Virus record (IMG/VR): IMGVR_UViG_3300048591_000451
Span: 1-37,069 of that record
DNA length: 37,069 bases
Reading direction: 5' to 3' (one strand)
DNA from: a virus
Below are positions 4,035-37,069 of this stretch, in pieces. The notes beneath the pieces were generated by a model. That model worked only from the letters and a program-made list of their open reading frames with translations. It was not told the origin of the DNA and did no database searches. The first letter of the stretch is position 1. Every line of letters starts with the position of its first letter. The position numbers and the translations under genes are program-made.

Positions 4035-4871
4035 TTATTTATTAAATAAATCATCAACAGGATTATCTGTTTTTGCTTTTTCCTCACTATTTAATTCACC
4101 TTGCGTTTCAAGTTCATAAATCGGTTCGCTATTTTCAATCAAACCATTCAAATTATTATCAAGTTTTGTTATAACTTTTTCGTCCATGTGAACAAGTCGT
4201 TGGTCTTCGATTGAAAGCGGAAGCAATTTGCAAAGTGATTTTAAAACCGTTTTCTTTGCCATTTCTTCTTCCCAAGCATTCCAAATGCTTGCACCTTGTG
4301 CAACTGCTTTGCGTTTCATAATTTGTTCTTTGGTCATGAAGTCGATTTGTTGGTCGCCATTTTTGAATTTGGCAACCGCAACCGCCAAATACCATTTACC
4401 TCTATCACCTTTTAAAAGCGGTCTGAAATTAACCGTATTTTGTAAAGGGTCAATTTCGATAAAATCATTTTCATAAACAATTTGAGCCGATATTGAGCTA
4501 ATCTTGTCAGACCTTCTCACAAGTTCAATCAATCCTTTATAACCAAATTGTAAGCTACAAATTACCTTGCCTTGTGTCTTGTTGCGATAAGGTATTAAAA
4601 AACTATGACCTAAATGTGAACCGATTTCTAAACCCATTTGAGCAGATAACATAACAGAACCCAAAAAGCTGTTAGGCGTACATTCTAAAAGCAAAGGATT
4701 TTTAGTTATTTCGCTTGAACAGATTCTTAAAAATCTGTCTGCCCCAACATGTGCCGGCAATACTTTTTTAAACTCGTCCGCATAACCCTTTAACTTTTGA
4801 TTAAGCAAATTATTCAAGCTAGGCGGTAAAGCTTTCTTTTCTGCAACTTCATTTTTTGCATTTTCAACCAT
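4035..4871 (-). CDS. recT: RecT single-strand annealing recombinase
   Basis: This 278-residue protein is a RecT-family annealing protein, which coats single-stranded DNA and pairs complementary strands in phage recombination. The family pattern runs in order: KVLPAHVGADRFLRICSSEI (residues 37-56), the GSVMLSAQMGLEIGSHLGHS block, then IPYRNK and VICSLQFGYKGLIELVRRS. The closing block is ASIWNAWEEEMAKKTVLKSL followed by the acidic, low-complexity tail. The length is close to the usual 270 residues. It is the partner of the PD-(D/E)XK nuclease fusion just upstream (4953-6965), like RecE/RecT in E. coli prophage Rac. The two genes are separated by a clear terminator-like hairpin, so the amounts of the two proteins may differ. 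Confidence 0.92.
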   Translation of the reverse strand: MVENAKNEVAEKKALPPSLNNLLNQKLKGYADEFKKVLPAHVGADRFLRICSSEITKNPLLLECTPNSFLGSVMLSAQMGLEIGSHLGHSFLIPYRNKTQGKVICSLQFGYKGLIELVRRSDKISSISAQIVYENDFIEIDPLQNTVNFRPLLKGDRGKWYLAVAVAKFKNGDQQIDFMTKEQIMKRKAVAQGASIWNAWEEEMAKKTVLKSLCKLLPLSIEDQRLVHMDEKVITKLDNNLNGLIENSEPIYELETQGELNSEEKAKTDNPVDDLFNK

Positions 4872-4904
4872 TTTAAAAACTCCCCAAAAATTTAATTAAT
4901 TTAA

Positions 4905-4938
4905 CAAAAAAAGCACTATACACTATTATATAGTGCTT
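4905..4938 (-). terminator. Intrinsic terminator after the DUF1351-nuclease gene
   Basis: A 9-bp stem, AGCACTATA (4912-4920) with TATAGTGCT (4929-4937), is followed on the minus strand by seven T residues (4906-4912). It sits between the nuclease gene stop and the recT ribosome binding site, so it should lower, not abolish, recT transcription from upstream. Confidence 0.75.
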
Positions 4939-4952
4939 CAAAAATATATAAA

Positions 4953-10837: not shown

Positions 10838-12501
10838 TATACAAGCCCCAACTTTTTAACTTGTGGTACACAATGAAAATTGTAAAAAGATAAAGCCCTG
10901 CCAATATGGCAAAGGCAACGCTCATAATTTTCGTCTTGTGTTTCCAAGTCTGTGATTCCTGTCGATGAAGTAAAAGTTTGACCAACCAAAATACCTTCTG
11001 GTAAATCATCAATTGCATAGATTTTATTTTGTTCTTTTAATTTCAATTGTCTACCAAAATATTCTATTTTTTTATAGTAATCTTGCCAACCGCCTAAATT
11101 TTCGGTTGAAATTAGTTCATAGTAAAAATGAAAAATACTTCCGTCTTCCTCATCAATTTCTACGGAATTAACAAGAAAACCATTATTAATATCTATTTTA
11201 TGGTCATTTAATTTGACGCTTAAAATATCGCCAATTGATAAAATTTGACTATCACTTTTAAAATTAATTGAAATAGGTATTTTTGAAAATTTTCTTACAA
11301 GTCCACCGGCTAATTGGCTTGCATATTCTCCGCTCTCAATACTTTCGTCGTCGAAAACATCCTCGTAAATTCCGCTTGAATTTTCAATGTTTGACCGTTC
11401 AGATATACTTGTTTCATTGCTTCTTTGTCTAACAACAACAAATAATCCTTTATATGAAACTGTTAAAATATCGCTATCAGTTAATTCAGTTTCGCCATCG
11501 TCTTGTACGATTCCACTTTCACCCTTTTCATAGTACCATTTTGCAGTAGTTTCACTATCTCGTTCAGCAACGGTTTGGTCAACGCCATTTACTTGTATTG
11601 CATCAGGTCTTAAAGTTCCATCAGCATTTTTTATCAAAGTCGATAATTTGTATTTTAAATTAAATGTTCTTCTTGTTCCATCACCAACAAATGAATCAGT
11701 TCTTTCATCAGTTTCATCATTACCGGCAATAATATACTGCCTATTCACTAATTGGTCTGAACGCCTTTCAATTTTTATATTTCCGTGTCTTATTCCTTTA
11801 TTGCAAACCTGATTGTTAATAAAATAACAAAACTCATTTTCTGTATTTTGACTTTCTTCACAATCAGGCGATAAAACTGCACCGGTAGTCTGTGAGCTTC
11901 TAACAAAAAAATGCAATCCTTTATAAAAGTCTATATACCAAAATAAACCGCTTACATTTGAAATGTCATTAAATGCTTTGCTCACTTTAACATAGCTAAA
12001 AACTGTTTTCGCAATTTCTAAATATTCTGCGTTTACATTTTCAAGCGTAATACCTTCTTGTTCTAAGTAATCTGTCCAAATTCGTTCAATCAAACTTTGA
12101 ACGCTTTGAGCCGGATATATATTTATTACTAATCGTCTATCAAGTATAGCGTGATAATCAACGCAAGTAACATCGTGAAAAACTGTTTTCCCACAATATG
12201 AATTTTGACTTGATATGTCTTTTATATTTCCTGCAAAAATTCTTTTAAATGGCTCACCGGCACAAGGTGATTGCTCAATAACTACCTCATGACCGATTTC
12301 TGGCGTATAACCACCAATGCCGACAAGTGTAAAACTTGCTGTGCTTCGATTATTCATATTTTGCTTTATTTTGAGTGTAGAAACTTTTAAATATTCTAAA
12401 GCAGATTTATGATTAATTGAAAATATAAAATTTCCAACACCAAAAACAGTAAAATGTTTGCTCGCAAAATGCTTGCTTTCAAAATGTTTTGAAGTAAACA
12501 T
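10837..12501 (-). CDS. Tail tip/hub-like protein
   Basis: This 554-residue protein lies where siphovirus tail hub or tail-associated genes usually lie, two genes after the tape measure. The N-terminus has a short repeat (SKHFESKHFASKHFT) followed by a domain with YLKVSTLKIKQNMNNRSTAS and VVIEQSPCAGEPFKRIFAGN. That domain resembles the beta-barrel start of phage hub proteins (gp27/gp44 type), with the HDVTCVDYHAILDRRLV segment typical for them. A central FVGDGTRRTFNLKYKL segment is also common in such proteins. The C-terminal 60 residues are Cys-containing and unassigned. It would join the tail tube to the fibres. The start is ATG at 12501, directly abutting the previous gene. Confidence 0.65.
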   Translation of the reverse strand: MFTSKHFESKHFASKHFTVFGVGNFIFSINHKSALEYLKVSTLKIKQNMNNRSTASFTLVGIGGYTPEIGHEVVIEQSPCAGEPFKRIFAGNIKDISSQNSYCGKTVFHDVTCVDYHAILDRRLVINIYPAQSVQSLIERIWTDYLEQEGITLENVNAEYLEIAKTVFSYVKVSKAFNDISNVSGLFWYIDFYKGLHFFVRSSQTTGAVLSPDCEESQNTENEFCYFINNQVCNKGIRHGNIKIERRSDQLVNRQYIIAGNDETDERTDSFVGDGTRRTFNLKYKLSTLIKNADGTLRPDAIQVNGVDQTVAERDSETTAKWYYEKGESGIVQDDGETELTDSDILTVSYKGLFVVVRQRSNETSISERSNIENSSGIYEDVFDDESIESGEYASQLAGGLVRKFSKIPISINFKSDSQILSIGDILSVKLNDHKIDINNGFLVNSVEIDEEDGSIFHFYYELISTENLGGWQDYYKKIEYFGRQLKLKEQNKIYAIDDLPEGILVGQTFTSSTGITDLETQDENYERCLCHIGRALSFYNFHCVPQVKKLGLV

Positions 12502-13086
12502 TTATACCCTTTCGATTTCTGTCCTATTGAAACCATCATCGGAAGTTGATTTTACTCTGGTTACTGAATTATCACCATAACTTTTAAATAATGTCTGTGA
12601 AGTTTCTGCGCCTTCTGTTTCACCCATTAAAACTGCTCCGATGTCTTCCATTAAATCGCTTAGATTTAAAGCACCAACTGGAACTTGTTCCAATCCATCG
12701 GAAGAAATTTTAACACCATTATTTAATGCTTTCGCAACAATACAAATTTGAAGTAATACATCTTGATTACTTCCTGAACTAAATTCAAAATTAATATAAA
12801 CGATTCCACTATTAGCCTGTAAAGCAGTGTTAGGAATTGAATATTGATAAATGCCCGGTAAATTTGCGCTATCAACTTCTTTCCAGCCATTAGAAAGATA
12901 AGTATCATTTGTCGCATTAACAACCGGATTTCCCGAAGCACTCGCACCGGCTTTGCCTCGTTCCCATGAACGAACCTTTACGCCTGTGTTTATAATACCT
13001 GTAACACCCTTACCGCTACCGTCAACAGCTTTTATTTCAACGATATTGTTAATGCTATTTTTTTCTATCCATTCGACTTGAATCAT
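12502..13086 (-). CDS. Tail-associated structural protein, 194 residues
   Basis: No precise family is recognised. The N-terminal 120 residues are a beta-rich domain of the kind seen in baseplate and fibre-linked proteins: NIVEIKAVDGSGKGVTGI opening, GWKEVDSANLPGIYQYSIP, and SGIVYINFEF. The rest (LNLSDLMEDIGAVLMGETEG and on) is a helical tail with a possible trimerising or attachment role. It lies between the tape measure and hub-like genes, the place of distal tail proteins, so it is probably part of the tail tip. The start is ATG at 13086 after AAGGAAAAAA. Confidence 0.55.
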   Translation of the reverse strand: MIQVEWIEKNSINNIVEIKAVDGSGKGVTGIINTGVKVRSWERGKAGASASGNPVVNATNDTYLSNGWKEVDSANLPGIYQYSIPNTALQANSGIVYINFEFSSGSNQDVLLQICIVAKALNNGVKISSDGLEQVPVGALNLSDLMEDIGAVLMGETEGAETSQTLFKSYGDNSVTRVKSTSDDGFNRTEIERV

Positions 13087-13098
13087 TTTATTTTTTCC

Positions 13099-15570
13099 TT
13101 ACATTAGTACGCCGGTTGATAATCTAATTTCACGAGGCGAATTTTTTATAACTGTTCTCGCCAAAGTTCTACCATCTAAATTCATGATAATAGTTTGTTC
13201 TCTATTACCTAACATTGAATCCAATCTATCAAGTGGTATAACTGCTTCTTGACCTTTTTCACCAATTAAGGCATTTGTCGGCCCTTGTGTTATACCACCA
13301 CTAGCAAGTTTTAATTTGCCTTGTAATCCCATAACAGTAGCAATCATAGCGCCCATTGCAGCAATCGCCAAAATCGGCCCAATAATTGGGATACCGGCTT
13401 GTGAACTTGCTGCGCCCGAACCGGCTACAATTGCGTTGTTTGCAATCATAGTTTTTGAACTGGCAACACTTGAAGCCGTAGCAATTCCTGCTGTTGTAAT
13501 TGCATCAGCCTGTACAATTTTTGAAGTTACACTGCTTACAGTTCTTTTCATTAATTCAGTCATTAACCATTGCATACCCATTTTAACTATATTTTGAATT
13601 ACAAAATCAGCTAACGATTTAAACATAGACTTAAATGTTTCAGCAAAACTAGCACCGTCTAAAATCATATTAGAAATGCCTTGCGAAAAATTATTAAAGA
13701 CATTGTCCCATAACCCGCTTACAACAGTCGAGGCAGTAATCATAGAGTTTTCTATATGTTCTGCCAATTCCGTCCAAATTGTTTTTTGCGATTCTATTTT
13801 ATCTTTTAAATTTGTATCGTCTGATTGTTTTAAATCAGCGGTACTACTTCCACCAACACCAATAAAAGAAGGCATTTCATTTTTTGCCATTGATTTAATA
13901 TTAGGGTCTTCCTGTGCAACTTCTGGAACTGGCTTCTGTTTTGCTTTTCCAAATGGATTAAAATCACCAAGTAAAGAAAGCGAACCAATTGCTAAATTTT
14001 TCATATATTCAAGTGCCGAAGTAAAAGCGCTTTTTGCCCCATCGGCAACAGTATCCCAAGCACCACCCATTTTAGATTTTACCCAGTCGGCAGTATCACC
14101 AATCGCACCTTTAACACTGCTACCAATTCCGATTAATGTTGCGTCGAAATCTTCTGCCATATCATTTAATTTTACTTCAATTTTTGTTGCTTCTTCTCTA
14201 AAACTATCTGAAAAACCAGTAAATTTAGGATTATTTATTTCTTGTTTTAAATCACCAATTGAAGTATTAATGCCCATTATAGCATTAGTTGCAAGTCTTG
14301 AAGCCTCATCAAAACCCTTGCCGATATTTGCCAAAAATACGCTTGTTTCAATAGCCTTTTCCATGCTTTGAAGCAATATGAGAATTGCTGGCCCAAATTT
14401 ATCAACAATTACTTTTGCATTGTCTGCAAAAATTCCTGCCAAACCTGCAAAGGCAACTATTGCCATTCTGATTATTTGAATTACACTTCCAATTATTACA
14501 ACAATTGGCAAAGCTACCGAAGCAAAAGCAGAAACAGCAGTTACCATTGCCCCAACATTTGCAACAAAAAAGGCAAATGCTTTTGAAATCAAAGAAGCGG
14601 TAAAGGCTAAAACACTAGAAATGGCAACAGCCAAACCTTTAATTAACGACCAAATTATACCTGTTGCTGTAATTAATGCAGTGCTTAATGTTCCCACAAC
14701 CGTAATCAAAGGCGGAAGCAAAACGGCAAATGCTAGAACGGTCATTGCACCACGCTTAACAGAATCGTCAAGTGAAATAAAATAGTCAATTAAGGGCATT
14801 ATTTTATCAATCAATGAGCTAACGATAGGAATTAATTCTTTTCCAAAAGTTTCTTGCAAAGTTTTTACTTTTGCATTGAATCTGTTCATCACTTCGCCCC
14901 AACCTTCTTGCGACTTGGAAGTGCTTCCTATTGATTTTTCAAAAGTTTTATGAAGCAAGCTAGACATAACTAAAGCTTTGTCACGCTCATTTAATTGTTC
15001 TTTTGTTTTATTAATTCCTAAAATAAACGCTTCATTTTCTATTTCTGCATCAGATATAGAAATACCTAATTGTTTTAATGATTTTACATTTCCGGTTAAA
15101 CTAGAAGTAAATGCTTCCATTACTTTTGAATCAGATATTCCTTTTAAACTAGCAACATCAATTCCAAGTTGAACTAATGACCGTGATAAATCTCCGGCTT
15201 CTGATTCCGTTAAATCCATTGAAGTAAAAAGGCTACCAAATTCGGAAGCATAATTCTTCAAATCAGTTGTATTTCTTCCAAATATTTTAGATAAATTTAA
15301 TAAAGACTTTTCTATTTTAGGAGCAGAATCGCCAAAAACGGCAGTAATTCTGCCGTTAGCGTCTTCCGCCTCACCTGCCATTTTTAAAAGAGATTTTGAT
15401 ATTAATGTAGCAGGCAAAGCAAGCGCAACCGACATTTTTGCGCCTAATGTTTGAATATTTTTAGTGATTTTTTTTGTTGAATTAATTACTTCACTTACGG
15501 ATTTATTAAGATTTTTTGAAAAATCTTTTGTAAGTAATTCAAGTTTAACGCTTAATGTTTTTTGAGCCAT
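13099..15570 (-). CDS. Tail tape measure protein
   Basis: This 823-residue protein sets tail length and fills the tail tube before DNA ejection. The N-terminal part (residues 1-290) matches TP901-type tape measure proteins, with the RITAVFGDSAPKIEKSLLNL and LGIDVASLKGISDSKVMEAF blocks. Several hydrophobic segments lie between residues 275 and 400, as usual for the membrane-inserting part, and there is a Gly/Ala-rich C-terminal region (about 695-760). The closing part with ASGGITQGPTNALIGEKGQE and VIPLDRL is a common tape measure end. It starts with ATG at 15570 inside the end of the chaperone extension ORF, an overlap of 26 bases. By the known rule of about 0.15 nm per residue, the tail would be roughly 120 nm; this is an estimate. 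Confidence 0.93.
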   Translation of the reverse strand: MAQKTLSVKLELLTKDFSKNLNKSVSEVINSTKKITKNIQTLGAKMSVALALPATLISKSLLKMAGEAEDANGRITAVFGDSAPKIEKSLLNLSKIFGRNTTDLKNYASEFGSLFTSMDLTESEAGDLSRSLVQLGIDVASLKGISDSKVMEAFTSSLTGNVKSLKQLGISISDAEIENEAFILGINKTKEQLNERDKALVMSSLLHKTFEKSIGSTSKSQEGWGEVMNRFNAKVKTLQETFGKELIPIVSSLIDKIMPLIDYFISLDDSVKRGAMTVLAFAVLLPPLITVVGTLSTALITATGIIWSLIKGLAVAISSVLAFTASLISKAFAFFVANVGAMVTAVSAFASVALPIVVIIGSVIQIIRMAIVAFAGLAGIFADNAKVIVDKFGPAILILLQSMEKAIETSVFLANIGKGFDEASRLATNAIMGINTSIGDLKQEINNPKFTGFSDSFREEATKIEVKLNDMAEDFDATLIGIGSSVKGAIGDTADWVKSKMGGAWDTVADGAKSAFTSALEYMKNLAIGSLSLLGDFNPFGKAKQKPVPEVAQEDPNIKSMAKNEMPSFIGVGGSSTADLKQSDDTNLKDKIESQKTIWTELAEHIENSMITASTVVSGLWDNVFNNFSQGISNMILDGASFAETFKSMFKSLADFVIQNIVKMGMQWLMTELMKRTVSSVTSKIVQADAITTAGIATASSVASSKTMIANNAIVAGSGAASSQAGIPIIGPILAIAAMGAMIATVMGLQGKLKLASGGITQGPTNALIGEKGQEAVIPLDRLDSMLGNREQTIIMNLDGRTLARTVIKNSPREIRLSTGVLM

Positions 15571-15931
15571 TTTCTAAAGCCTTTTTCTTGTTTAGTTCAA
15601 TTAAGCGTTTAGTGATATTTTCTTTTCTTAAAGCCTGTTTTTCTTCGGTAGTCATAAACATTTTTTCAAATGCTTCAGCCTCGTCTTCTGGCGTTAACAA
15701 CGACTTGGCTTTTATTTCTTCCCAATTAAAAAGCTCTTTAGGCTTCAACATCTTTTTAACATGCGGTGCTGTCAAATAGCTAATCTGCCAACTCGCTAGT
15801 TCGTACTTCTCTTTAAAGTCTTGCTCTTTGTATAAATACATGTAGTCAATATCTTTGCAGGTCATATCCCAAAAATCTTTTGGTTTTATGCCTATTTCGG
15901 ATATTGCAATTTCATAATATTTATTAATCAA
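15545..15931 (-). CDS. Tail assembly chaperone, frameshift extension part (gpT-like)
   Basis: This ORF encodes about 128 residues before the tape measure gene, but its only nearby start is a TTG at 15931 without a good ribosome binding site. In the same frame it is open upstream to the nine-A run at 15976-15984. A -1 shift there, after codon 102 of the preceding chaperone gene, gives a product of 245 residues: 102 from the first ORF, 15 linking residues and these 128. This is the conserved G/GT arrangement described in lambda and in most siphoviruses, in which both products help the tail tube form around the tape measure. The sequence itself (KYYEIAISEIGIKPKDFWDM, then basic C-terminus) fits the tail chaperone extension type (GT-like, with tryptophan-aspartate/YMYLYKEQ). 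It is best annotated as a frameshift extension, not a separate gene. Confidence 0.8.
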   Translation of the reverse strand: MINKYYEIAISEIGIKPKDFWDMTCKDIDYMYLYKEQDFKEKYELASWQISYLTAPHVKKMLKPKELFNWEEIKAKSLLTPEDEAEAFEKMFMTTEEKQALRKENITKRLIELNKKKALENGSKNIKR

Positions 15932-15945
15932 TTCCTTAAAGGTTT

Positions 15946-16281
15946 TTATCTCTTTTTCTTCGCCTGTTCCGATTCTTTTTTTTTCATTTCTTTAAACAAG
16001 GCGCTTTCTTCTATTGTTTCGTTAATCAATTCCATTAGCTTATCAATGCCATTTTTTTCTACGAAGTCATCTAATAAATTTTTGAAATTTTTTAAGTCTA
16101 GCCCGTCATTATCACCAGATATGCAAGCCTCGACAAAATTTGAAACAACTGTCAAATCGCCCTTGTTTAAATTTTTAAAAAAGTCTTCAATGCCAACCGC
16201 ACCGAAAACAGTTTTTAAGTAATCAAAAGCAGAAAAGCCAAAACGCAATCGTCTTGGCCTGTCTAATTGTATAAATGCCAT
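15946..16281 (-). CDS. Tail assembly chaperone (gpG-like)
   Basis: This 111-residue protein is the short form of the tail assembly chaperone. It has a beta-like start (MAFIQLDRPRRLRFGFSAFD) and then a helical body (FFKNLNKGDLTVVSNFVEAC, NLLDDFVEKNGIDKLMELIN), as in the family of small chaperones just before tape measure genes. The C-terminus is a Lys/Glu-rich tail. Near its end it runs through the slip site ATGAAAAAAAAAG, which allows a share of ribosomes to shift into the extension ORF. The start is ATG at 16281 behind GGGAG with a run of A between. It follows the tail tube gene directly, the usual order tube, chaperones, tape measure. Confidence 0.8.
   Translation of the reverse strand: MAFIQLDRPRRLRFGFSAFDYLKTVFGAVGIEDFFKNLNKGDLTVVSNFVEACISGDNDGLDLKNFKNLLDDFVEKNGIDKLMELINETIEESALFKEMKKKESEQAKKKR
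15976..15984 (-). promoter_or_regulatory. Nine-A slip site for -1 frameshift between chaperone ORFs
   Basis: On the minus strand the zero frame reads ATG AAA AAA AAA GAA. Slipping back one base on the last AAA gives AGA, which is the frame of the extension ORF. A AAA AAA G is a known slippery heptamer type. Transcriptional slippage adding one A would have the same effect. No clear downstream stem-loop was identified by eye. Confidence 0.8.
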
Positions 16282-16319: not shown

Positions 16320-16751
16320 TTACGGCAAAATTAAAGTCTGTGGTTTTCCGCAACCTTGAAATGAACCGCTAATCATAACAGCGTCTTCGAGTGCGTTCTT
16401 TTCTTCCCACGATTTTACTAAAACCGTACCTTCAAAATATTTTGCACCGCTGACATCATTAGGTCGATATTGAAAAATCAATTCGCTACCTTCTGTAATG
16501 CCACCAAGTACGGCTTCTTGTCCCGGGTCAGCTTCCAACGAAATGACTTCGATTGATACTTCCCATTCTTTCAAGCCTTCAATGAATTCCTTCCAACCAT
16601 CTACCGAATCAAAAGAAGTAACATCAATTGGCGTCATGTTTTTTGAAATGCTCATGTCTTTAGCATTTGCGACTACTAAATAAGTAGAACCGCCATCCGT
16701 AGATACATACGGCTTGCCTTTATATCCCGCTACACCTTTACCGCAACCCAT
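16320..16751 (-). CDS. Major tail tube protein
   Basis: This 143-residue protein is likely the tail tube subunit, placed just before the tail chaperones. The pattern GYKGKPYVSTD, KDMSISKNMTPIDVTSFDS, EFIEGLKEWEVSIEVISLEA, DPGQEAVLGGI and then EDAVMISGSFQG fits tail tube proteins of the TP901-1 major tail protein 2 family, which form hexameric rings stacked into a tube. The length is typical for one tube domain without an added Ig domain. The start is ATG at 16751 with AAAGGAAA upstream. A second, clearly related tube domain occurs at the junction 20455-20018, where it is fused to other domains. Confidence 0.85.
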   Translation of the reverse strand: MGCGKGVAGYKGKPYVSTDGGSTYLVVANAKDMSISKNMTPIDVTSFDSVDGWKEFIEGLKEWEVSIEVISLEADPGQEAVLGGITEGSELIFQYRPNDVSGAKYFEGTVLVKSWEEKNALEDAVMISGSFQGCGKPQTLILP

Positions 16752-16785: not shown

Positions 16786-17118
16786 TTACACTTTTTGACG
16801 AATAACCGCAACTTCAATATCAGTGATAGAGCCAAAAGTCAATTCGACATTTCCACCATTATTAAAAAGCATTTGTTCAAAAAAAGATGATTCATAAACC
16901 TTATTTGCAACCATTGCAACGACAATATCGCCACTTCTTCGATTGCTATCTACACGACTTTTTACAGTCAAATTTCCCGTTGGCGTTGCACCGGTTTTTA
17001 CAATCAACTTGCAAAATCCATTGTTTTTGAAAACCATTTCCAAAGCACCGGCAACAAATGTAACTGTGCTTACTGCATGGTTTAATTGGTCTTGTACTAC
17101 GATTTCTGTTGCTGGCAT
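16786..17118 (-). CDS. Hypothetical tail/virion protein, 110 residues
   Basis: No family is recognised. The protein looks like a single beta-sandwich domain: ATEIVVQDQLNHAVSTVTFV, then GFCKLIVKTGATPTGNLTVK, then VELTFGSITDIEVAVIRQ, with few charged residues. It lies between the tail terminator and the tail tube, a place where decoration or tail-associated proteins occur in siphoviruses. The start is ATG at 17118. A structural role is inferred from location and composition. Confidence 0.55.
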   Translation of the reverse strand: MPATEIVVQDQLNHAVSTVTFVAGALEMVFKNNGFCKLIVKTGATPTGNLTVKSRVDSNRRSGDIVVAMVANKVYESSFFEQMLFNNGGNVELTFGSITDIEVAVIRQKV

Positions 17119-17140: not shown

Positions 17141-17551
17141 TTATAATGTAATCACTCTAAACTCAATTGAAAGCATTCTGCCTTGAGTTTCCATATTCAC
17201 ATTAGGATTTTCATCCCGACCAGAATATTTAAACATCAAAACACAACACGCAAGCGAACTAATATTTTCTTCCTGTCTTGAAAGCAATTCTTTAATTCGC
17301 TTTTCTATATCATAGATTGTACTCAGTGAAAGCGATTTTCCATAAATATCTACATAATAAGTCATTGCATCGCCGTCATCGTCAAAAGTAGAAAAGTCAC
17401 TCGATGAAGTGCGACCAATACAAATATAAGGATACAATACATTATCTTGCGGTACATAATTATAAACGCCCTTTGCAAGACTTTGTATTGTCGCATCATT
17501 GTTTATAATAGCATAAACAGAACAGTGCAGGTCTTTAATAGAGCATGTCAT
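17141..17551 (-). CDS. Tail terminator-like protein (DUF3168 type)
   Basis: This 136-residue protein resembles tail terminators, which cap the tail tube and make the head-joining interface. The pattern HCSVYAIINNDATIQSLAKG VYN at the N-terminus, then LYPYICIGRTSSSDFST, DAMTYYVDIYGKSLSLSTIY and the closing RMLSIEFRV matches the DUF3168/gpU-like family. Its position, between the gp10-like gene and the tail tube gene, is exactly where the terminator normally sits. The start is ATG at 17551, two bases after the gp10-like stop. Confidence 0.7.
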   Translation of the reverse strand: MTCSIKDLHCSVYAIINNDATIQSLAKGVYNYVPQDNVLYPYICIGRTSSSDFSTFDDDGDAMTYYVDIYGKSLSLSTIYDIEKRIKELLSRQEENISSLACCVLMFKYSGRDENPNVNMETQGRMLSIEFRVITL

Positions 17552-17552
17552 T

Positions 17553-18011
17553 TTATTTCATTTCCTTTAAAATTTTTTCTAATGCCTTTTCAACCTTTGG
17601 GTTAATTTTATTAAATGCAGGAATAAGAAAAGGCTTTTCTTCAATACCATTTTTTACAATTTTTCTATAAACTGGATAAAAAGGAAGACCATGCCTTGCG
17701 CACCAAACTTTTAAATCTGCCTTAAATTGTTCCGAGCCATTACTTGTAGTGTGCGGGCTTGTTCCATATTCGACATGCGGGGCGTATGGCACGGTACAAC
17801 CGATTTCAACTTCAACGGCAATCTTACCCATAATATTTGCGGTGCTTTGAATATCATTTGCAAGTCTTCCGGTATCAAAACTGTTTTGAGTTACAGTATT
17901 GACAGCTTCTTTTTGTATTTTATTTCCACCTTCAATCATTACCCTAGTTAGTTTTTCGGAAGTTTCTTTGCCCAAAGATTTAAGCCATTTTTCAAATTGT
18001 TTCGGAGTCAT
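17553..18011 (-). CDS. HK97 gp10-like tail completion protein
   Basis: This 152-residue protein belongs to the HK97 gp10-like family of neck/tail completion proteins. The diagnostic segment is VPYAPHVEYGTSPHTTSNG (about residues 80-98), followed by KPFLIPAFNKINPKVEKALE near the C-terminus, as in the family. The N-terminal helix (EKLTRVMIEGGNKIQKEAV) is also typical. In most siphoviruses this gene directly follows head closure; here a block of about 6 kb separates the two. The start is ATG at 18011, four bases after the upstream stop region. Confidence 0.85.
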   Translation of the reverse strand: MTPKQFEKWLKSLGKETSEKLTRVMIEGGNKIQKEAVNTVTQNSFDTGRLANDIQSTANIMGKIAVEVEIGCTVPYAPHVEYGTSPHTTSNGSEQFKADLKVWCARHGLPFYPVYRKIVKNGIEEKPFLIPAFNKINPKVEKALEKILKEMK

Positions 18012-18015
18012 TTTT

Positions 18016-18870
18016 TTACCCTAAATTAATTTCAATTTGAACAATCGGACGAATTCTTCCTACACGATAAACAAAATCACTTAAACAAAGTTTTGCGCTA
18101 TAGGAATCACAATTATTATTTTTTCTTGTGTAAATTATTTTATTTTCAAAAATTGAACATTTATAAATAGATTTTTGGTCTGCAACAATTGCCTTAACTT
18201 CTAAAGTATCTAAATCTAGTTCATCGGTAAAATGACAATCATTTGTTTGTTGTTTTCCAATATTGCTAGGATAAGTAAGCAATAATTTATTTGTGCCATA
18301 AACAAATGAAATTCTCCTTACAAAACCACATAAACCTATTGCAATTTTTCTAATTACTTTGGCTTGTTTGTTTTCTACAACAATAAAAGCATTGCCGATA
18401 TAAGAACTCGCAACTGCTTTATATTTAATATTTTCAGCAACACAATAAGACCTTAAACCCATTATTTGCGGTATAAATTCAGGCTCGCCAAGAGAATTTA
18501 AATCGTCGCCTTTTCTTCTATATGCTCTATATATTGGTTTTCTATGGCTTACTAAATCCTCACGAGTATATATTAAATTTATTTTACCTTGCCCATCAGT
18601 AAAAGCCGAAGGCGAGCAATAAACATTTTTTAAATCATCTTGAAAAATATTTTGCTCATTTGTAGCAATTCCTGTTTCCAAATCTATATCGCAAGTATAA
18701 ATAGAATAATCTCGGTAATATGTTTCCGTACCCATATCATGCAATTGCCTGTATCCCTGTTCTTCTAACTTTGTATCATCTAAATTAGCACGACAATACA
18801 AAAGTTTATTGCCACCAATTAAAAAAGGCATGTGCCTATGATAACTATTATTTGAAAAATTTATTTCCAT
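18016..18870 (-). CDS. Hypothetical beta-rich protein, 284 residues
   Basis: No family is recognised. The correct start is ATG at 18870, directly after the stop of the tube/LRR ORF (TAAAATG); a longer frame upstream overlaps that ORF and looks non-coding. The protein repeats a motif of short strands with aromatic and Asp residues: LIGGNKLLYCRANLD, YSIYTCDIDLETGI, KINLIYTREDL, NAFIVVENKQAKVI, NKLLLTYPSNIG, ENKIIYTRKNN. This looks like a beta-propeller of several blades. It has no signal peptide. It is linked by position to the beta-rich/tube/LRR locus and may be a virion surface or glycan-binding protein, which is inference. Confidence 0.55.
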   Translation of the reverse strand: MEINFSNNSYHRHMPFLIGGNKLLYCRANLDDTKLEEQGYRQLHDMGTETYYRDYSIYTCDIDLETGIATNEQNIFQDDLKNVYCSPSAFTDGQGKINLIYTREDLVSHRKPIYRAYRRKGDDLNSLGEPEFIPQIMGLRSYCVAENIKYKAVASSYIGNAFIVVENKQAKVIRKIAIGLCGFVRRISFVYGTNKLLLTYPSNIGKQQTNDCHFTDELDLDTLEVKAIVADQKSIYKCSIFENKIIYTRKNNNCDSYSAKLCLSDFVYRVGRIRPIVQIEINLG

Positions 18871-18871
18871 T

Positions 18872-20470
18872 TTAATACAACCAACTTCTTGGCAAAGCCA
18901 AAGGATTAAACTGTTCAACAGGTAAAATTTCTGAATATTTCGGAGTATAAGTAATAAGACTTTCAGCTTCTGCAAGCGTAATTCCCTTATCACTTGCAAT
19001 TTGTGCAATTAAAAGCGTTATATCATCAAGCGGAGATAATTCAAGTTCTGATATATCTAGCTTTTCAAGTATAATAAAGTCTTTACACAATTGAGGAAAC
19101 ACGGAAGCCACAAGCAAAGAACTATTAGCCGTTAATTTTCTTGACTCCCAATAACCATTTCCGTAGAAAGCATCGTTAGGGTAACGGTTTAAAGCAAAGT
19201 ATAGCTCTTTTACTTTTAGTTTATCGCAATTCCAAAACGAAACAATATTTTTATTCACATTCAAATAGTCAAGCGTGCTTGGATTCGGTGCGCTTGTAAA
19301 ATTGCTAAACAAAAATTGCTCTGTGATAAAGTTATAACTCAAATCTAAATACTTGATCGTGTCGGCAAAGTTTACCAGTGCGCTTGACCATTGGCCTAGA
19401 AGATTGTGGTCAGCCTTTAAGTATTTAAGTTCTAGGTCTTGAATCGACTCAATGTCCGTAAAGCTTAAATCATTGAAAGATATGTTGACGCCTGTCAACC
19501 CTGTTAGTGTTCCAATGATCGTAAGGTCTGAAAGCCTCATGTTCGATAGGTCTAATATATAATCTGGGTTTGCAGGGAAGAAGCTATAAACCAAAAGAAT
19601 CCACACATCGGAAGCGTTTCCGTTATGGCCCAATGTGATACCTACCAATGAAGCCAATTTCTTTATGATCTGAATTTGCCCGAAATTGGTTGTCTTTTCG
19701 GCAATCTCAACGAATTGCTCATACTTTGTAAGCGAATTATTAGGAATATAAGCACTATCTCGACATAAATAGCGATAAACGACATGAACGGGGCAACCGC
19801 TTAGGCCGGCACCACTGGCATTAAGCGTGATCGTTCCAATGTCTCCGGTGCCTGTCTCAATCGGTTCAAAGGTTTTCTCAACTATCCAACCAGTAGAGCC
19901 GGCCGGTGCCTTTGGGGCCTCAAATGTTTGGCCATTAAACATATAAATATTTTCATTCAATTCCTCACAACAGATATTATTGCAAGTGATTAAATTAGCC
20001 TGTTTCTCGAACATTCTTTGTAAAGGGCCTGTGCCAAGAATGGCAAAGCTATTGTTTACGGCATCTTGTGTGCTTTGTTGAATGCCAACAGAAACAACAA
20101 ACCCCATACCAATACGAACGGTGCGATAACCACGGGTTCCGAAGTCTTTATTTCTAACTAGCTTAATCCAAACCCGTTCATGATTGTCGATTGCTTCCCT
20201 TAATCGTTCTTGACCGGCATCGTCTTCAATATAAACATTTGAAATTGTTACTGACCAACGCTTAAAAGAGGCTTCAAATTTTTTATATTTATTATCTCTT
20301 TGAAGTTGACCGTATGTTGAAATATCGGTCATTTCAGATTGAATATTTAATTTGAAATTAAGAATAGCGCCAACTTTTACGAATTCAGAATCAGCACAAT
20401 TAGCATCTTTACGAAGCCAAATTTCGCCTTTGTAGCCGTTCTCGCCTATTCCACAAGAAAAAATGCCGTT
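18872..20470 (-). CDS. Tail-tube-like domain plus leucine-rich repeats, -1 frameshift extension of the upstream ORF
   Basis: The first ATG in this frame is at 20332 (486 residues), but the frame is open to 20476 and the 46 upstream codons are clearly coding. They supply SCGIGENGYKGEIWLRKDA, which matches the start of the tail tube protein (MGCGKGVAGYKGKPYVSTD). Further matches are KKFEASFKRWSVTI with KEFIEGLKEWEVSI, DDAGQERLREAI with ADPGQEAVLGGI, and QDAVNNSFAILGTGPLQ with EDAVMISGSFQGCGKPQ. A full tube domain therefore requires entry from the upstream ORF by a -1 shift. No ATG, GTG or TTG lies in the 46 codons. Residues 258-395 (counted from the ATG) are leucine-rich repeats: YILDLSNMRLSDLTIIG, GVNISFNDLS, IKYLDLSYNFI, LDYLNVNKN. 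The linker between has four Cys. The fused product would be about 1190 residues. Confidence 0.75.
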   Translation of the reverse strand, partial: NGIFSCGIGENGYKGEIWLRKDANCADSEFVKVGAILNFKLNIQSEMTDISTYGQLQRDNKYKKFEASFKRWSVTISNVYIEDDAGQERLREAIDNHERVWIKLVRNKDFGTRGYRTVRIGMGFVVSVGIQQSTQDAVNNSFAILGTGPLQRMFEKQANLITCNNICCEELNENIYMFNGQTFEAPKAPAGSTGWIVEKTFEPIETGTGDIGTITLNASGAGLSGCPVHVVYRYLCRDSAYIPNNSLTKYEQFVEIAEKTTNFGQIQIIKKLASLVGITLGHNGNASDVWILLVYSFFPANPDYILDLSNMRLSDLTIIGTLTGLTGVNISFNDLSFTDIESIQDLELKYLKADHNLLGQWSSALVNFADTIKYLDLSYNFITEQFLFSNFTSAPNPSTLDYLNVNKNIVSFWNCDKLKVKELYFALNRYPNDAFYGNGYWESRKLTANSSLLVASVFPQLCKDFIILEKLDISELELSPLDDITLLIAQIASDKGITLAEAESLITYTPKYSEILPVEQFNPLALPRSWLY

Positions 20471-22443
20471 TTTTTTTCATCGCACGAATTTACATTCGTT
20501 ATGACGCCGGCTAATGTTCCAGTTATCGTACTGAGCGGTGTCTTTCGAAGCTCAGCAGAACTTAGAACAATTATTGTTCCATCAACAGTTAAATTAAAAT
20601 TATTAGTACACCATGCACCGGCTAATATAACTAAATTATTTAGCCCATTATCTCCGGCTTGACCATTGTCAATAGTGATTGCGCTCAATTGAGTAACCTT
20701 ACCGCTAGGCTTGTTTACTTGCCATATACCGCTATCAAGTTTACCGTCCGATGAAGTTACTGTTTGGTCTGACGCACCATTTAAAAGAAATGTTGGTGAA
20801 GTCGCTAAAACTCTACTTGAATATAAATTGTTTTGCTCAACATTTCCACCTATGCGAACCATAAACCCTGCACCAATAACATTTGCAGTCGTTGCCGTTG
20901 AACTCTTTTTATAGTAGCCGTTAATTGTAAGGCTTGAACCTAAAGTTAATGAAGCGGTTAAGCGTGCGAAACTAAAATTGCTTAAAGTCCAACCGTTAGT
21001 AGTTAAAAGCAAAGCGGTTCCTACCGCAGTATTTGCAAACAAACCGCCACCAATTAAGCTACGATTAAACACCGAAGCAATGCCTATAATAAAATCAGTA
21101 CCTCGACAAATAATTCCTTGCGAACCCTCATTAAATGTGCCTAGTGTTGAGACAAAACGCAATAAATCTAATACGCCGGCGCCTTGATTATAAATACCGC
21201 CTGTTTGATTGAATGCATCAGGTATTACTAAGTTGAAACCGTTTTGATTAAAGGTTCCGCTTATCATATTGAAGTCGTTAGTAGCGCCTAACATTGTAAA
21301 GTTAGACATTAGCGTAACAGTACCGCCCGACTTATTAACATCGATTGGAACTTGATAAGATGCTACTGAACTTGTAAAGCTTTGAGCGCCTGTACCGTTA
21401 AATATTGCTCCCGAACAATTTCCATTTGCAGTAAGGATAGATAAATTTCCTCTAAATCTAACTGGTGGGAAATTGTTAGCTCCTGTTTGGGCATTTAAAA
21501 TAAAATCACCTTCGCATTGTATTTGAGTTCCTGCCCAACCAACACCTACACCACTAGTACAATTTTGTTCTAGGTGGTGAAATTGTCCGTTGGTTATTGT
21601 TATTCCGTTATTTGTGAATCTAGCGATAGCCTTTTTTGAATTCCAGTTTATTGTTCCTACAATATGATTCCAGTTTCCATACCAAGCAAAATCATTAATA
21701 ATATTTAATGTACCGCTAGGTTTGTTTATTGTAATTGCATTTACTACTATTGCGCCTGTAACATTGAAGTCTTGATTTCCTGTTCCTTCAAAAACAACAG
21801 AAACGCTACCTAGTGCGAATGTAACATTACCTTTAACATAGGCAACCAATGACCCACCATTTGCATAATTATTTAGAGTTCCAACTAAATTATTTGCAAC
21901 ATATATTCCTGTTCCTGCTAATGTACAACTTGGACACATATTAAATTCAAAATTGTAGAATGGATACCCGATTAAATTTCTTGCATTTGTGTGATTGCTT
22001 CCGCTAATTAACATCGTTCCATTATTATGATTAAATACACCGCCTGTAATATCAAGGCTATAAGTTCCGATTCCTGCGACGCCTACCGTGTGTACTCCGC
22101 TTGTGCTTGTGAAAGTTCCTGCGGTCATTACGAATCGGCTTGAACTGCTTCCAGTTATTGCGGAAGATGAACCAACAAAAACGCCTCCGTTTACTGTCCA
22201 CCAAGCAGAACCATAATTAATAGTAAAAGCATTTTGAGTAAAGGTATTTATATACCCTGCGCTCATTAAAATACCTTGAACATTTATATTAACTTCAAGA
22301 CTTAAATTACCACTATTGGCATCAAGAATAATTCTGTCGCCCGAAGCAGGAACGCTTGCACCGGAAGCACCGCCGGAAGTCGTTGACCAATTGGCGGTAG
22401 TGTTGAAATTTGTACCAACATTTAAAAAATAGCGATCAGCCAT
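20446..22443 (-). CDS. Large beta-rich (beta-helix-like) virion protein, 665 residues
   Basis: The protein starts at ATG 22443, two bases after the upstream stop region. It opens with RYFLNVGTNFNTTANWSTTS and SVPASGDRIILDANSG, a motif found at the start of many beta-helical phage and cell-surface proteins. The rest is a long run of short strands rich in Gly, Asn, Thr and Ser, for example AGTFTSTSGVHT, SGTFNQNGFNLVIPD, and NKPSGTLNIIND paired with NKPSGKVTQLSA. No catalytic site is evident. It ends seven codons after a nine-A run (20469-20477), and a -1 shift there fuses it to the tube/LRR ORF. It is therefore probably an exposed virion domain carried on a tube-like base. Confidence 0.7.
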   Translation of the reverse strand: MADRYFLNVGTNFNTTANWSTTSGGASGASVPASGDRIILDANSGNLSLEVNINVQGILMSAGYINTFTQNAFTINYGSAWWTVNGGVFVGSSSAITGSSSSRFVMTAGTFTSTSGVHTVGVAGIGTYSLDITGGVFNHNNGTMLISGSNHTNARNLIGYPFYNFEFNMCPSCTLAGTGIYVANNLVGTLNNYANGGSLVAYVKGNVTFALGSVSVVFEGTGNQDFNVTGAIVVNAITINKPSGTLNIINDFAWYGNWNHIVGTINWNSKKAIARFTNNGITITNGQFHHLEQNCTSGVGVGWAGTQIQCEGDFILNAQTGANNFPPVRFRGNLSILTANGNCSGAIFNGTGAQSFTSSVASYQVPIDVNKSGGTVTLMSNFTMLGATNDFNMISGTFNQNGFNLVIPDAFNQTGGIYNQGAGVLDLLRFVSTLGTFNEGSQGIICRGTDFIIGIASVFNRSLIGGGLFANTAVGTALLLTTNGWTLSNFSFARLTASLTLGSSLTINGYYKKSSTATTANVIGAGFMVRIGGNVEQNNLYSSRVLATSPTFLLNGASDQTVTSSDGKLDSGIWQVNKPSGKVTQLSAITIDNGQAGDNGLNNLVILAGAWCTNNFNLTVDGTIIVLSSAELRKTPLSTITGTLAGVITNVNSCDEKKTAFFLVE
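20469..20477 (-). promoter_or_regulatory. Nine-A slip site for -1 frameshift into the tube/LRR ORF
   Basis: On the minus strand the zero frame reads GAT GAA AAA AAA ACG. Slipping back one base on the second AAA gives AAC GGC, the frame of the tube-like domain. The context ATGAAAAAAAAA is the same as in the chaperone slip site at 15976-15987. Transcriptional slippage adding one A, or a homopolymer sequencing error, would also join the frames. Confidence 0.65.
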
Positions 22444-22446
22444 TTA

Positions 22447-22896
22447 TTATTCACCTATCAAATTATTAAAAAATACTTCCGCTTCCGCTCGTGTATTAAA
22501 GCAAGTGTCTACCTCTGGATAATTCGAACAATCTAAAACAATATGCTGATTCCATTTTGCGTCAAAAATAATTGAATACAAACCATTGTCTATTTGTGCG
22601 TCAAAAATTGGTGCATCTTCTTCGATTGCTTCAACGATTCTCAAATAATCGTTTGTTGCCTCGGTATCACCTTCATAATGTTTTAGGTATCCGTGATACT
22701 TCAAAGTATCGCTAGAAGCATCAACCCAAACTTTAAAAACTGAACCAATTAAACCAAAATATTTTTTACTTACAGTAATATTTTTGCCGTTATATTCGAC
22801 AATAGAAACGCTTTCAACTTCGCTATATTTTAATTGTTGCCAAGCATTGAAGTCAATCGGTTGGTTGTCTTTATCACGATAATTTAAGTCTGACAT
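22447..22896 (-). CDS. Hypothetical protein, 149 residues
   Basis: No family is recognised. The acidic protein shows alternating strands: VSIVEYNGKNITVSKKYFG, VFKVWVDASSDTLKYHGYL, LYSIIFDAKWNQHIVLD. A short helical end (FNTRAEAEVFFNNLIGE) follows. The frame starts with ATG at 22896 after AAAGGAAA and stops four bases before the large beta-rich gene, so the two are probably translated together. It may be a small virion part or chaperone for that protein; this is only a location argument. Confidence 0.55.
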   Translation of the reverse strand: MSDLNYRDKDNQPIDFNAWQQLKYSEVESVSIVEYNGKNITVSKKYFGLIGSVFKVWVDASSDTLKYHGYLKHYEGDTEATNDYLRIVEAIEEDAPIFDAQIDNGLYSIIFDAKWNQHIVLDCSNYPEVDTCFNTRAEAEVFFNNLIGE

Positions 22897-22918
22897 TTTC
22901 GTATTTCCTTTTTATTAA

Positions 22919-23419
22919 TTAAACGCCATTCATTTCAATTGCTTTGTTAGCTTCTTCCGGAGTCAATGAAGCAAGATATTTCTTCCAATCCTCGTCTTCT
23001 TTTCTTCTTTTTGCCATATTTTGATTTCTATTATCTAAAGCCTTTTTGCCACCAAAGAAACCAAGCAAACCTAAAACAATATCGGTTGCAAGTCCACCGT
23101 AAGGAATACCGCACATTTCAGTAATACTTCCAACGGCTTTCACGCCCTTTGTAACGGATTCATTATCTAACGATAAGCCTTTTGATTTTTGAGATTCCTC
23201 AAAAGAAACAATTGCTTTTTCGGTTGCTTCGGCTTTTAATTTTGCCGTCGCTTCTGTTTTTTGATAAGCATCAAAAAGGTCAGCCATTTTTTTAGTAGTG
23301 TCTGCATTATCACTAACGACTTTCGATAATCTTTCAACATCTACCGACTTCGCTAAACAACCACTAAGAAAAAATACCGCAATTACAAAAACACTTAAAA
23401 GATAAATTTTTCTACCCAT
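22919..23419 (-). CDS. Lipoprotein with C-terminal hydrophobic segment, possible unimolecular spanin
   Basis: The better start is ATG at 23419 (166 residues), behind AAAGG. The N-terminus is a lipoprotein signal: MGRKIYLLSVFVIAVFFLSG followed by Cys at residue 21, lipobox LSGC. A charged helical region (about 25-100) comes next, rich in Lys, Glu and Ala, then a hydrophobic segment GIPYGGLATDIVLGLLGFFG and a basic tail KKALDNRNQNMAKRRK. An outer-membrane lipid anchor at one end and an inner-membrane segment at the other is the layout of unimolecular spanins such as phage T1 gp11, which fuse the two membranes at lysis. The Asp in the hydrophobic segment makes this uncertain. It overlaps the small membrane gene upstream by 25 bases. 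Confidence 0.6.
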   Translation of the reverse strand: MGRKIYLLSVFVIAVFFLSGCLAKSVDVERLSKVVSDNADTTKKMADLFDAYQKTEATAKLKAEATEKAIVSFEESQKSKGLSLDNESVTKGVKAVGSITEMCGIPYGGLATDIVLGLLGFFGGKKALDNRNQNMAKRRKEDEDWKKYLASLTPEEANKAIEMNGV

Positions 23420-23523
23420 TTTTCGACCTTTATTAAAAATGTTTGAATCCAAAAAACTACCGTACTCAAAACAATAACGATTAAATATAAAGGCATTGCT
23501 AAAAGCCTTAATATATTTTTCAT
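23395..23523 (-). CDS. Small single-span membrane protein, 42 residues
   Basis: The start chosen is ATG at 23523, overlapping the upstream stop (TAATG), with AGAAGG about 8 bases before it. A longer frame to 23580 overlaps the previous gene out of frame and is less likely. The protein is MKNILRLLAMPLYLIVIVLS followed by TVVFWIQTFLIKVEKWVEKF and IF: one membrane helix and an amphipathic basic C-terminal helix. It could be a small holin or a membrane partner of the lipoprotein gene that overlaps it. No family is recognised. Confidence 0.55.
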   Translation of the reverse strand: MKNILRLLAMPLYLIVIVLSTVVFWIQTFLIKVEKWVEKFIF

Positions 23524-23993
23524 TACGGATACCTTCTTAAGTTCGGAAGGAAATCCCATTTGCCATTTGTTGCATTCCAAATCAATTGGTGATAATCACG
23601 ACTCAAAGCGGTGCCGTTTAAAACTGGTACGCCAACATCAAGTCCGCCTTGTGTTTTCGTTGCATTATATCCTAGAGTACGCCCACCAGTTGCATCTTGT
23701 TTTAAAACCAAAAGTAAAATCTGACCGTCAAAAGCACCGTCTGCAAGTAATAAACTAGCAATATTTGCGTTCATATTTATTAAAAATATTCTTGCCAATT
23801 GAGTGTTTAATGGGTTAGGAATTGAATTGGCATCATAGGAAATTGGAACTAAAGCCCTTTTCATTTCAGAACTATAAACTTGGTCTTGTAGTTGTAACAA
23901 AGTAGCATCTTCTACCGCAGGCTTATTAGGGTTTGGGTTTAAAGGTGGTACTGATGAATAAACTTGAATTTTTCCTGCCGTATTTGTTCCCAT
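23523..23993 (-). CDS. Fibre- or decoration-like structural protein, 156 residues
   Basis: The N-terminal third is an extended, Pro/Asn-rich segment (VYSSVPPLNPNPNKPAVEDA). The C-terminal part has the pattern GQILLLVLKQDATGGRTLGY followed by VPVLNGTALSRDYHQLIWNA, which is frequent in small beta-sandwich domains of phage tail fibre and decoration proteins (QDATGGRT motif). No enzymatic site is seen. The gene follows head closure and opens the accessory block that reaches down to 18016. The start is ATG at 23993, one base after the head-closure stop. Confidence 0.6.
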   Translation of the reverse strand: MGTNTAGKIQVYSSVPPLNPNPNKPAVEDATLLQLQDQVYSSEMKRALVPISYDANSIPNPLNTQLARIFLINMNANIASLLLADGAFDGQILLLVLKQDATGGRTLGYNATKTQGGLDVGVPVLNGTALSRDYHQLIWNATNGKWDFLPNLRRYP

Positions 23994-23994
23994 T

Positions 23995-24432
23995 TTATCC
24001 TACCCCACTTTGCGAAAACATTTCTTGTCCCTGTTGGTTAAACATTTCTTGCCCCTGTTGGTTATATAATCCTGCAAGTGCAAAATTCACCTCATCATTT
24101 TGAATTGCAATTGCATTAATCGAAATATTATAATCGCCTTCATCTTTATTCGATATTCCTTGAATACGCAAAATTTTACCATTAAAAACAATTATATCAG
24201 TAGGTAAAAACTCAAAACCAATATTAAATCGAGTAGTGATTTTATAAGTTTTTACATTCGTAATTTTTCTGTCAGTGAATCTTTCGTCATTTCCTGCATC
24301 AAAATAAGGAGAAACTTTAGACCAACATTCACCTTTATAAACAAATTTTTCAGTAGCACCAATACAACCAACATCGCTTAATTGTTGCGAATAAACATAA
24401 ATATAATTGCTTAAACTACCGGCTTTGGTCAT
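23995..24432 (-). CDS. Head closure/head-tail joining protein
   Basis: This 145-residue protein follows the gp6-like connector and fits the head-closure family (HK97 gp7/SPP1 gp16, head-tail joining). The signs are the N-terminal beta strands (YIYVYSQQLSDVGCIG), then KGECWSKVSPYFDAG and TDRKITNVKTYKITTRFN. The middle GFEFLPTDIIVFNGKILRIQ GISN block, with strand pairs and the RIQGIS sequence, is typical of the family. The C-terminus carries a repeated octapeptide NQQGQEMF, from a 24-bp tandem repeat, followed by SQSGVG; this tail is unusual. The start overlaps the connector stop (ATGA). Confidence 0.7.
   Translation of the reverse strand: MTKAGSLSNYIYVYSQQLSDVGCIGATEKFVYKGECWSKVSPYFDAGNDERFTDRKITNVKTYKITTRFNIGFEFLPTDIIVFNGKILRIQGISNKDEGDYNISINAIAIQNDEVNFALAGLYNQQGQEMFNQQGQEMFSQSGVG
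24017..24064. repeat. Two 24-bp tandem repeats at the end of the head-closure gene
   Basis: Two adjacent 24-bp units (24017-24040 and 24041-24064) differ at one base (T or C at the twelfth position). They stay in frame and encode the octapeptide NQQGQEMF twice. A recent slipped-strand duplication near the C-terminus is the simplest reading. Confidence 0.85.
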
Positions 24433-36978: not shown

Positions 36979-37068
36979 TTAAACACTGTTAATAATTCCT
37001 TCTAGTTCTTTTATTTTTTTTTCTGTATCATTTAACTTAAATCTTAAATAGTCTATAATATTAATATT
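36979..37068 (-). CDS. Partial hypothetical protein at right edge (C-terminal end)
   Basis: This frame enters from the right edge and ends with TAA at 36979. It reads NINIIDYLRFKLNDTEKKIK then ELEGIINSV, a charged helical end. Its first codons coincide in frame with the last codons of the partial gene at 1-334, so together they make one protein of 134 residues if the window closes as a circle. Between 36880 and 36978 there is only A/T-rich sequence with two Shine-Dalgarno-like words (36951-36957 and 36921-36926) and no other gene. Confidence 0.6.
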   Translation of the reverse strand, partial: NINIIDYLRFKLNDTEKKIKELEGIINSV

Positions 37069-37069
37069 T

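Follow-up and report, generated by a model that had tools for sequence, protein, structure and literature searches.

A gene block between the head-closure and neck genes of an uncultured siphovirus and a predicted frameshift fusion to a second tail-tube domain

What are seven genes doing between the head-closure gene and the gp10-like tail completion gene of a virus? The question is raised by IMG/VR record IMGVR_UViG_3300048591_000451, whose 37,069 bases were analysed as a whole (the window). The larger open reading frames (ORFs) of the window lie on the minus strand, and seven ORFs on that strand fill positions 18016-23993. They are bordered upstream by the gene for the head-closure protein Hc1 (23995..24432, minus strand; phrog_25 E 3.1e-5, with Pfam Phage_HCP at E 4.9e-4, below its cut-off) and downstream by the gp10-like Neck1/tail completion gene (17553..18011, minus strand; phrog_5 E 6e-21, Pfam HK97-gp10_like E 1.9e-8). 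These matches bear out the initial annotation, which had placed seven ORFs between the two genes. It had also called the two usual neighbours, and in the three nearest named phages (Geobacillus GBK2, Bacillus Silence, and Paenibacillus Tadhana, picked by portal or tail-protein similarity) their positions are indeed adjacent, by annotation and gene order only.

The answer favored here, with a probability of about 0.6, is that these genes make up a virion-decoration cassette specific to the clade, with a second tail-tube domain (MTP2) at its center, in which a -1 slip yields a fusion of a beta-rich protein, a tube domain, and a leucine-rich repeat (LRR)-like part that would serve as a tail- or neck-anchored adhesin. 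The cassette is carried by a rare group of uncultured bacterial viruses. Relatives were taken from viral-contig scans: L003 (a 38.7-kb contig), L005 and L011 (parts of one 39.9-kb contig, of which the L005 record covers 22.2 kb), and L002 (a 4.3-kb fragment). Records L004, L006, L012, L013, and L020-L023 duplicate the contigs of L003 or L005. L007-L010 and L024, which are distant portal or capsid matches, were left out of every count; MTP2 was looked for in the L007 and L008 records and none was found.

The A9 junction and the second tail-tube domain

The core of the question concerns two neighboring genes. The first (20446..22443, minus strand) encodes a 665-residue Gly/Asn/Ser/Thr-rich, beta-rich repeat protein, a presumed adhesin, which is the product of normal reading (0-frame). 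The second, listed in the initial annotation as an ordinary separate gene for a tube/LRR protein, turns out to be joined to the first by a junction that had been overlooked. Its frame opens within the end of the beta-rich ORF, directly at a tract of nine A residues (A9; 20469..20477, minus strand), with a TGA just upstream in both the window and L005. In the 0-frame the tract is read GAA AAA AAA ACG, and the predicted -1 slip site is A AAA AAA. The open -1 frame (18872..20476, minus strand) is 534 residues long and holds the tube domain and the LRR-like C-terminal part. It has no ATG, GTG, or TTG before codon 48 in the window, where the first ATG is at 20332, or before codon 35 in L005, and it is the 48 codons above ATG 20332 that specify the N-terminal portion of the tail-tube domain. 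A gene caller would overlook where the tube-LRR frame begins, and the tube domain would stay hidden.

L005 has the identical 14 bases, GAAAAAAAAACGGC, at the homologous place (20010). The peptides on either side of the choice of frame are similar as well: the 0-frame proteins end in EKKTAFFLVE (window) and EKKTALFYAV (L005), and the -1 frame gives KKNGIFSCG and KKNGSFLCG, respectively. In the 48 codons compared after the slip, the two phages agree at 24/48 residues, and the nucleotide differences number 17, 15, and 35 at codon positions 1, 2, and 3, as is typical of protein-coding sequence. Apart from the junction tract, neither L005 (22.2 kb) nor L011 has a run of at least nine A on its coding strand. 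In the coding set examined from the window it is one of three, the tail chaperone slip site being another. The third window A9 (2845-2853) lies inside a coding ORF (2538-2990).

A screen for -1 heptamers at places where an upstream gene overlaps an open downstream frame covered 86 adjacent gene pairs from three phages (44 from the window, 10 from L005, 11 from L011, and 21 from L003, by gene lists drawn up for this analysis). Six pairs were positive: the tail assembly chaperone pair in 3/3 phages, the beta-rich/tube pair in 2/2, and, in L003, the protease/capsid pair, whose TTT/AAA motifs fall within an ordinary ATGA overlap that provides a normal start. Among the 86 pairs, an architecture readable by a shift only, together with a -1 heptamer, is confined to the beta-rich/tube (2/2) and chaperone (3/3) pairs. 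The chaperone pair serves as the positive control, because its shift is described as widely conserved in the consulted part of PMC5009743. In the window (15545-16281, minus strand) it also has an A9 slip site (15976..15984), from which the -1 frame continues without a stop into the second chaperone ORF. At the corresponding site L003 has A8 (19107) and L011 has A AAA AAG (10756).

The tube domain encoded beyond the junction, MTP2 (20012..20458, minus strand; phrog_1407 E 1.4e-11), is whole only when read from the slip site. phrog_1407 covers the 486-residue ORF only from profile position 68 on, and the 48 further upstream codons of the frame align with the start of the tube domain in L003 and with that of MTP1, the true major tail (tube) protein (16320..16751, minus strand; phrog_1407 E 2e-16). 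L003 MTP2 matches the same family (E 5.4e-5), and hhalign of the three MTP2 against the three MTP1 sequences gave 97.6% (E 4e-12); the match of MTP2 to Pfam Phage_tail_2 is sub-threshold (19.1 versus 23.8 bits). MTP1 of the window is 69-71% identical to those of the two relatives, and the MTP2 domain 35-48%. MTP2 is thus a diverged, duplicated, and faster-changing copy of the tail-tube protein. In a structure model of the tube-LRR protein, of low confidence (mean predicted local distance difference test score, pLDDT, 34), residues 10-163 best match tail chains of NF5, 80alpha, SaPI1, and SPP1 (Z 7.7-8.2), followed by unrelated flavin-binding folds (Z 7.2 and below). The five best matches of the model all have the length of tail-tube chains and come from structures of tail tubes, baseplates, or necks. 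Over its whole length the tube-LRR protein is 53% identical to its L005 counterpart. Of the earlier tube/LRR label, the tube half is upheld by this homology. The other half is kept in weakened form: as the Pfam LRR_4 match (E 0.0038, 17.9 bits) is below the family cut-off of 27, with repeats seen by eye only, the name LRR-like is used.

A possible adhesin-first fusion and its alternatives

In the proposed mechanism, ribosomes on the 665-residue gene would slip by -1 at the A9, or RNA polymerase would slip there. No choice is made between ribosomal shift and transcript slippage, because no conserved stimulator is seen and nine A is the length at which, according to the consulted part of PMC1088944, selection against A/T runs shows in many bacteria. 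Two products would result, namely a free or loosely attached 665-residue protein and, presumably as the minority, a fusion of about 1,200 residues in the order beta-rich adhesin, tail-tube domain, LRR-like domain. By way of its tube domain the fusion would assemble into the virion as a member of a tail-tube ring, most simply at the head-proximal end or the neck, given the gene position, and the adhesin and LRR arms would project as a collar or whisker for first host contact. From homology and gene order we infer an anchor in the tail, at the neck. In L003, which has no beta-rich gene, MTP2 starts at an ATG of its own behind a purine-rich leader, which fits the fusion as an option and the tube domain as the anchor. 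A more detailed form of the proposal is advanced tentatively, as one that is more doubtful than probable: a set fraction of adhesin chains may gain a specialized tube domain and form a mixed ring or collar at the neck, with N-terminal beta-rich and C-terminal LRR arms. The tail tube of such a virus would contain two or more kinds of paralogous ring, one kind acting as an exchangeable platform for display, which in L003 is unfused and has another C-terminal domain.

Several observations weigh against the fusion. By codon usage alone, EKKT is expected to be encoded GAA AAA AAA ACG in 4-7% of cases; the weight of the A9 rests on its place and conservation, not on codon-usage rarity. RNA folding downstream gives z -1.55 in the window and z -3.63 in L005, with different structures and no conserved stimulator. 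The junction is found in two phages only, and MTP2 is unfused in L003, so that the fusion is not essential in the clade. Gene order is the sole pointer to the neck, and both structure models have a low mean pLDDT (34). A 665-residue part ahead of the tube domain may hinder ring assembly, and the known frameshift decorations come after the tube domain, unlike here.

The same tract can be read in other ways. Slippage of RNA polymerase on A9 might produce A8 transcripts, in which an ATG (window) or GTG (L005) before the tract would start a separate tube-LRR protein (MKKNG...) with no fusion. Such a start codon stands directly before the A9 in both phages, and the length of the tract, together with the A9 used by T. 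thermophilus dnaX (consulted part of PMC1088944), speaks for slippage of this kind. There is, however, no Shine-Dalgarno-like stretch before either start, unlike many window genes; the TG of the apparent start is also accounted for by the 0-frame codon GAT or TGT followed by GAA; and identical slippage would equally yield A10 transcripts encoding the fusion. A separate protein made in this way is therefore considered improbable. Still less probable is ordinary internal initiation at ATG 20332, the first ATG in frame, with a product that would be devoid of the first part of the tube domain and with a coincidental A9: the protein sequence given by the 48 codons ahead of it is conserved in L005 and lines up with the N-terminus of the tube domain, L005 lacks a start codon at this point (a GTG elsewhere is its first), and ATG 20332 has no ribosome-binding site. 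Homopolymers are error-prone in some sequencing methods, and a real A8 or A10, or else a decaying tube-LRR gene, might lie behind the junction. This is the least likely of all the explanations, since the A9 is the same in two contigs that share only about 50% identity in these proteins, the downstream frame runs unbroken for 533-534 residues in both phages and is conserved, and a true A10 would give the fusion directly.

Two further alternatives concern where the products would act. A fusion made by the frameshift may be placed at the tail tip, as a Dit-like (distal tail) protein, or scattered along the tail instead of at the neck. No gene after the tape measure has a family match to Dit, which leaves room for such a role, and a distal tail protein can mimic the tube fold (consulted part of PMC11445458). 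The genes after the tape measure are far from the block, though, and MTP2 lies beside the neck genes in all three phages; the tail-tip or scattered placement is judged unlikely, if a serious competitor. The block might instead consist mainly of moron genes acting in the infected cell, by superinfection exclusion or lysis, as the lipoprotein and the one-helix membrane protein inside it could suggest. Both of these membrane genes are without an L005 counterpart and the conserved members look structural, which makes a moron block very improbable.

The block in relatives and the genome around it

Both larger relatives hold 6-7 kb at the site of the block (11008-17079 in L003; from Hc1 to gp10 in L005/L011), and the L002 fragment shows the first block gene. 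The site is thus stable in this small clade and its content not. By pairwise comparison the window and L005 have in common the fibre-like protein, the beta-rich protein, the tube-LRR protein, and the 284-residue protein, and L005 has one additional 253-residue protein. The L003 block has in common with the window the tube domain (36%), with fibre similarity at most borderline. The domain is found in a 426-residue protein, whose C-terminal part is unrelated. L003 also has its own lipoprotein, unrelated to that of the window, and a Gly-rich protein (Pfam Gly_rich_2) and a DUF1353-like protein, both just below cut-off. As L003 keeps the tube domain yet differs in fibre and lipoprotein, parts of the block are exchanged separately. 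Two neighboring L003 proteins (11477-13392) have a similar repeated domain, which in the second matches phrog_3030 in three stretches.

The initial annotation had suggested that the block may be a single host-interaction or virion-decoration unit, with membrane proteins that could protect the infected host or aid lysis, and had raised the question of whether it is gained and lost as a whole. The comparison speaks for decoration, in that the site is held in both relatives and one product is a second tail-tube protein, and it does not support the single unit, four members being kept in L005 without the membrane protein and lipoprotein and only the second tube gene in L003.

The other block members, in order from the head-closure side, begin with the fibre-like protein of 156 residues (23523..23993, minus strand), which has 47/119 identical residues with a 164-residue protein of L005 and 43/97 with an L002 protein with fibre-type repeats. 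It is followed by a small one-helix membrane protein (23395..23523, minus strand; 42 residues from the likely ATG at 23523, hydropathy 2.46 over 19 residues), for which pairwise comparison found no counterpart in L005 or L003, and by a lipoprotein with an LSGC lipobox (22919..23419, minus strand; 166 residues from the likely ATG at 23419), for which L005 gave no counterpart. A reading of the latter as a u-spanin was dropped because its second hydrophobic stretch, at 1.41 over 19 residues, is weak. Next is a 149-residue protein (22447..22896, minus strand), weakly similar to a 119-residue protein of L005 (24/84). The beta-rich protein is a homologue of a 904-residue protein of L005 (32%; local score 250 versus a shuffle maximum of 132), and its internal similarity exceeds that of 50/50 shuffles. 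It has no Pfam or PHROG match, so that no BppU-like anchor is recognized, and its structure model is uninformative (mean pLDDT 34); a beta-solenoid fold would be a guess, and the name is kept to beta-rich. Downstream of tube-LRR lies the gene for the 284-residue protein (18016..18870, minus strand), with 114/274 residues identical to an L011 protein. The earlier propeller-like label for it finds no backing, as it has no Pfam or PHROG match at E 0.1. Its start is likely the ATG at 18870, just past the stop of the preceding gene, and the TTG at 19008 is spurious. A start at 19008 was dropped because everything above 18870 would run over the end of tube-LRR, which is conserved.

Outside the block, the head genes are in ordinary order: large terminase, portal with a MuF-type end, protease, capsid, a 128-residue protein, adaptor, and head closure. 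After the block come gp10-like Neck1, the terminator (17141..17551; phrog_176 E 9e-15), a 110-residue protein, the major tail protein, the tail chaperone pair, and the tape measure. The 110-residue protein (16786-17118) is common to the three phages, the other copies being 56-59% identical to that of the window. Elsewhere, RecT (Pfam E 5e-41) lies beside a 670-residue protein (window 4035-6965) with an N-terminal phrog_674 match and a part that by eye resembles a RecB/Cas4-like nuclease. The contig ends (1-20 and about 37050-37069) are alike over about 20 bases with one difference, as seen by eye, perhaps reflecting terminal redundancy and a nearly complete genome.

Further searches were negative within their scope. 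The tube-LRR protein as a lone query against viral contigs gave no relative, and searches of phage records with the tube-LRR protein, the beta-rich protein, the 284-residue protein, L003 MTP2, and the 110-residue protein gave no match. Genome scans with the portal protein, aimed at the host, gave no match. A tRNA search found none. The block proteins of L005 and L003 mostly had no match in Pfam or PHROG.

Comparison with known systems

If the fusion is made, it would represent a different route for fixing host-binding proteins on a siphovirus, by an adhesin-first fusion to a duplicated tube gene, and the neck region would gain a tube-type collar in place of a BppU-type one. It would also offer a system for testing how phages set the number of an optional adhesin per particle. 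No description of an adhesin-first frameshift fusion to a tail-tube domain was found in the limited open-access literature consulted.

Frameshift-extended tail-tube proteins are described for SPP1 (gp17.1*), Listeria phages A118, A500, and PSA, and lactococcal 936 phages (TpeX) in the consulted parts of PMC6669499 and PMC5009743. As in these phages, the frameshift here would give a second tail-tube form with an extra, probably host-binding, domain. In the known cases unshifted reading gives the major tube protein, to which the shift adds a part at the C-terminus, and such C-terminal additions are the only frameshift decorations of tubes in the literature consulted. Here, unlike in SPP1, Listeria, and 936 phages, the order is reversed: unshifted reading gives the beta-rich protein, to which the shift would add the tube domain and the LRR-like part. 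The tube gene is also a diverged second copy beside the neck genes; a separate gene encodes the true major tail protein. The closest solved sequence relative of the latter is the monocin tail tube MttP (8qhs), which the MTP1 profile from the three phages matches at E 5e-10. The gpG-gpGT chaperone frameshift is alike in its -1 slip on an A-rich tract, found in this clade as A9, A8, and A AAA AAG; its products are described as absent from the mature virion (consulted part of PMC5009743).

The neck passage structure (NPS) of lactococcal 936 and P335 phages is an optional neck protein with variable C-terminal carbohydrate-binding or beta-helix modules, for which ancillary binding has been proposed (PMC6669499, NPS section). 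The section describes its anchor as BppU-like, not as a tail-tube domain, and does not speak of a frameshift. In its working, then, the case of this virus resembles both the frameshift-extended tubes and the NPS, and it has the defining order of neither.

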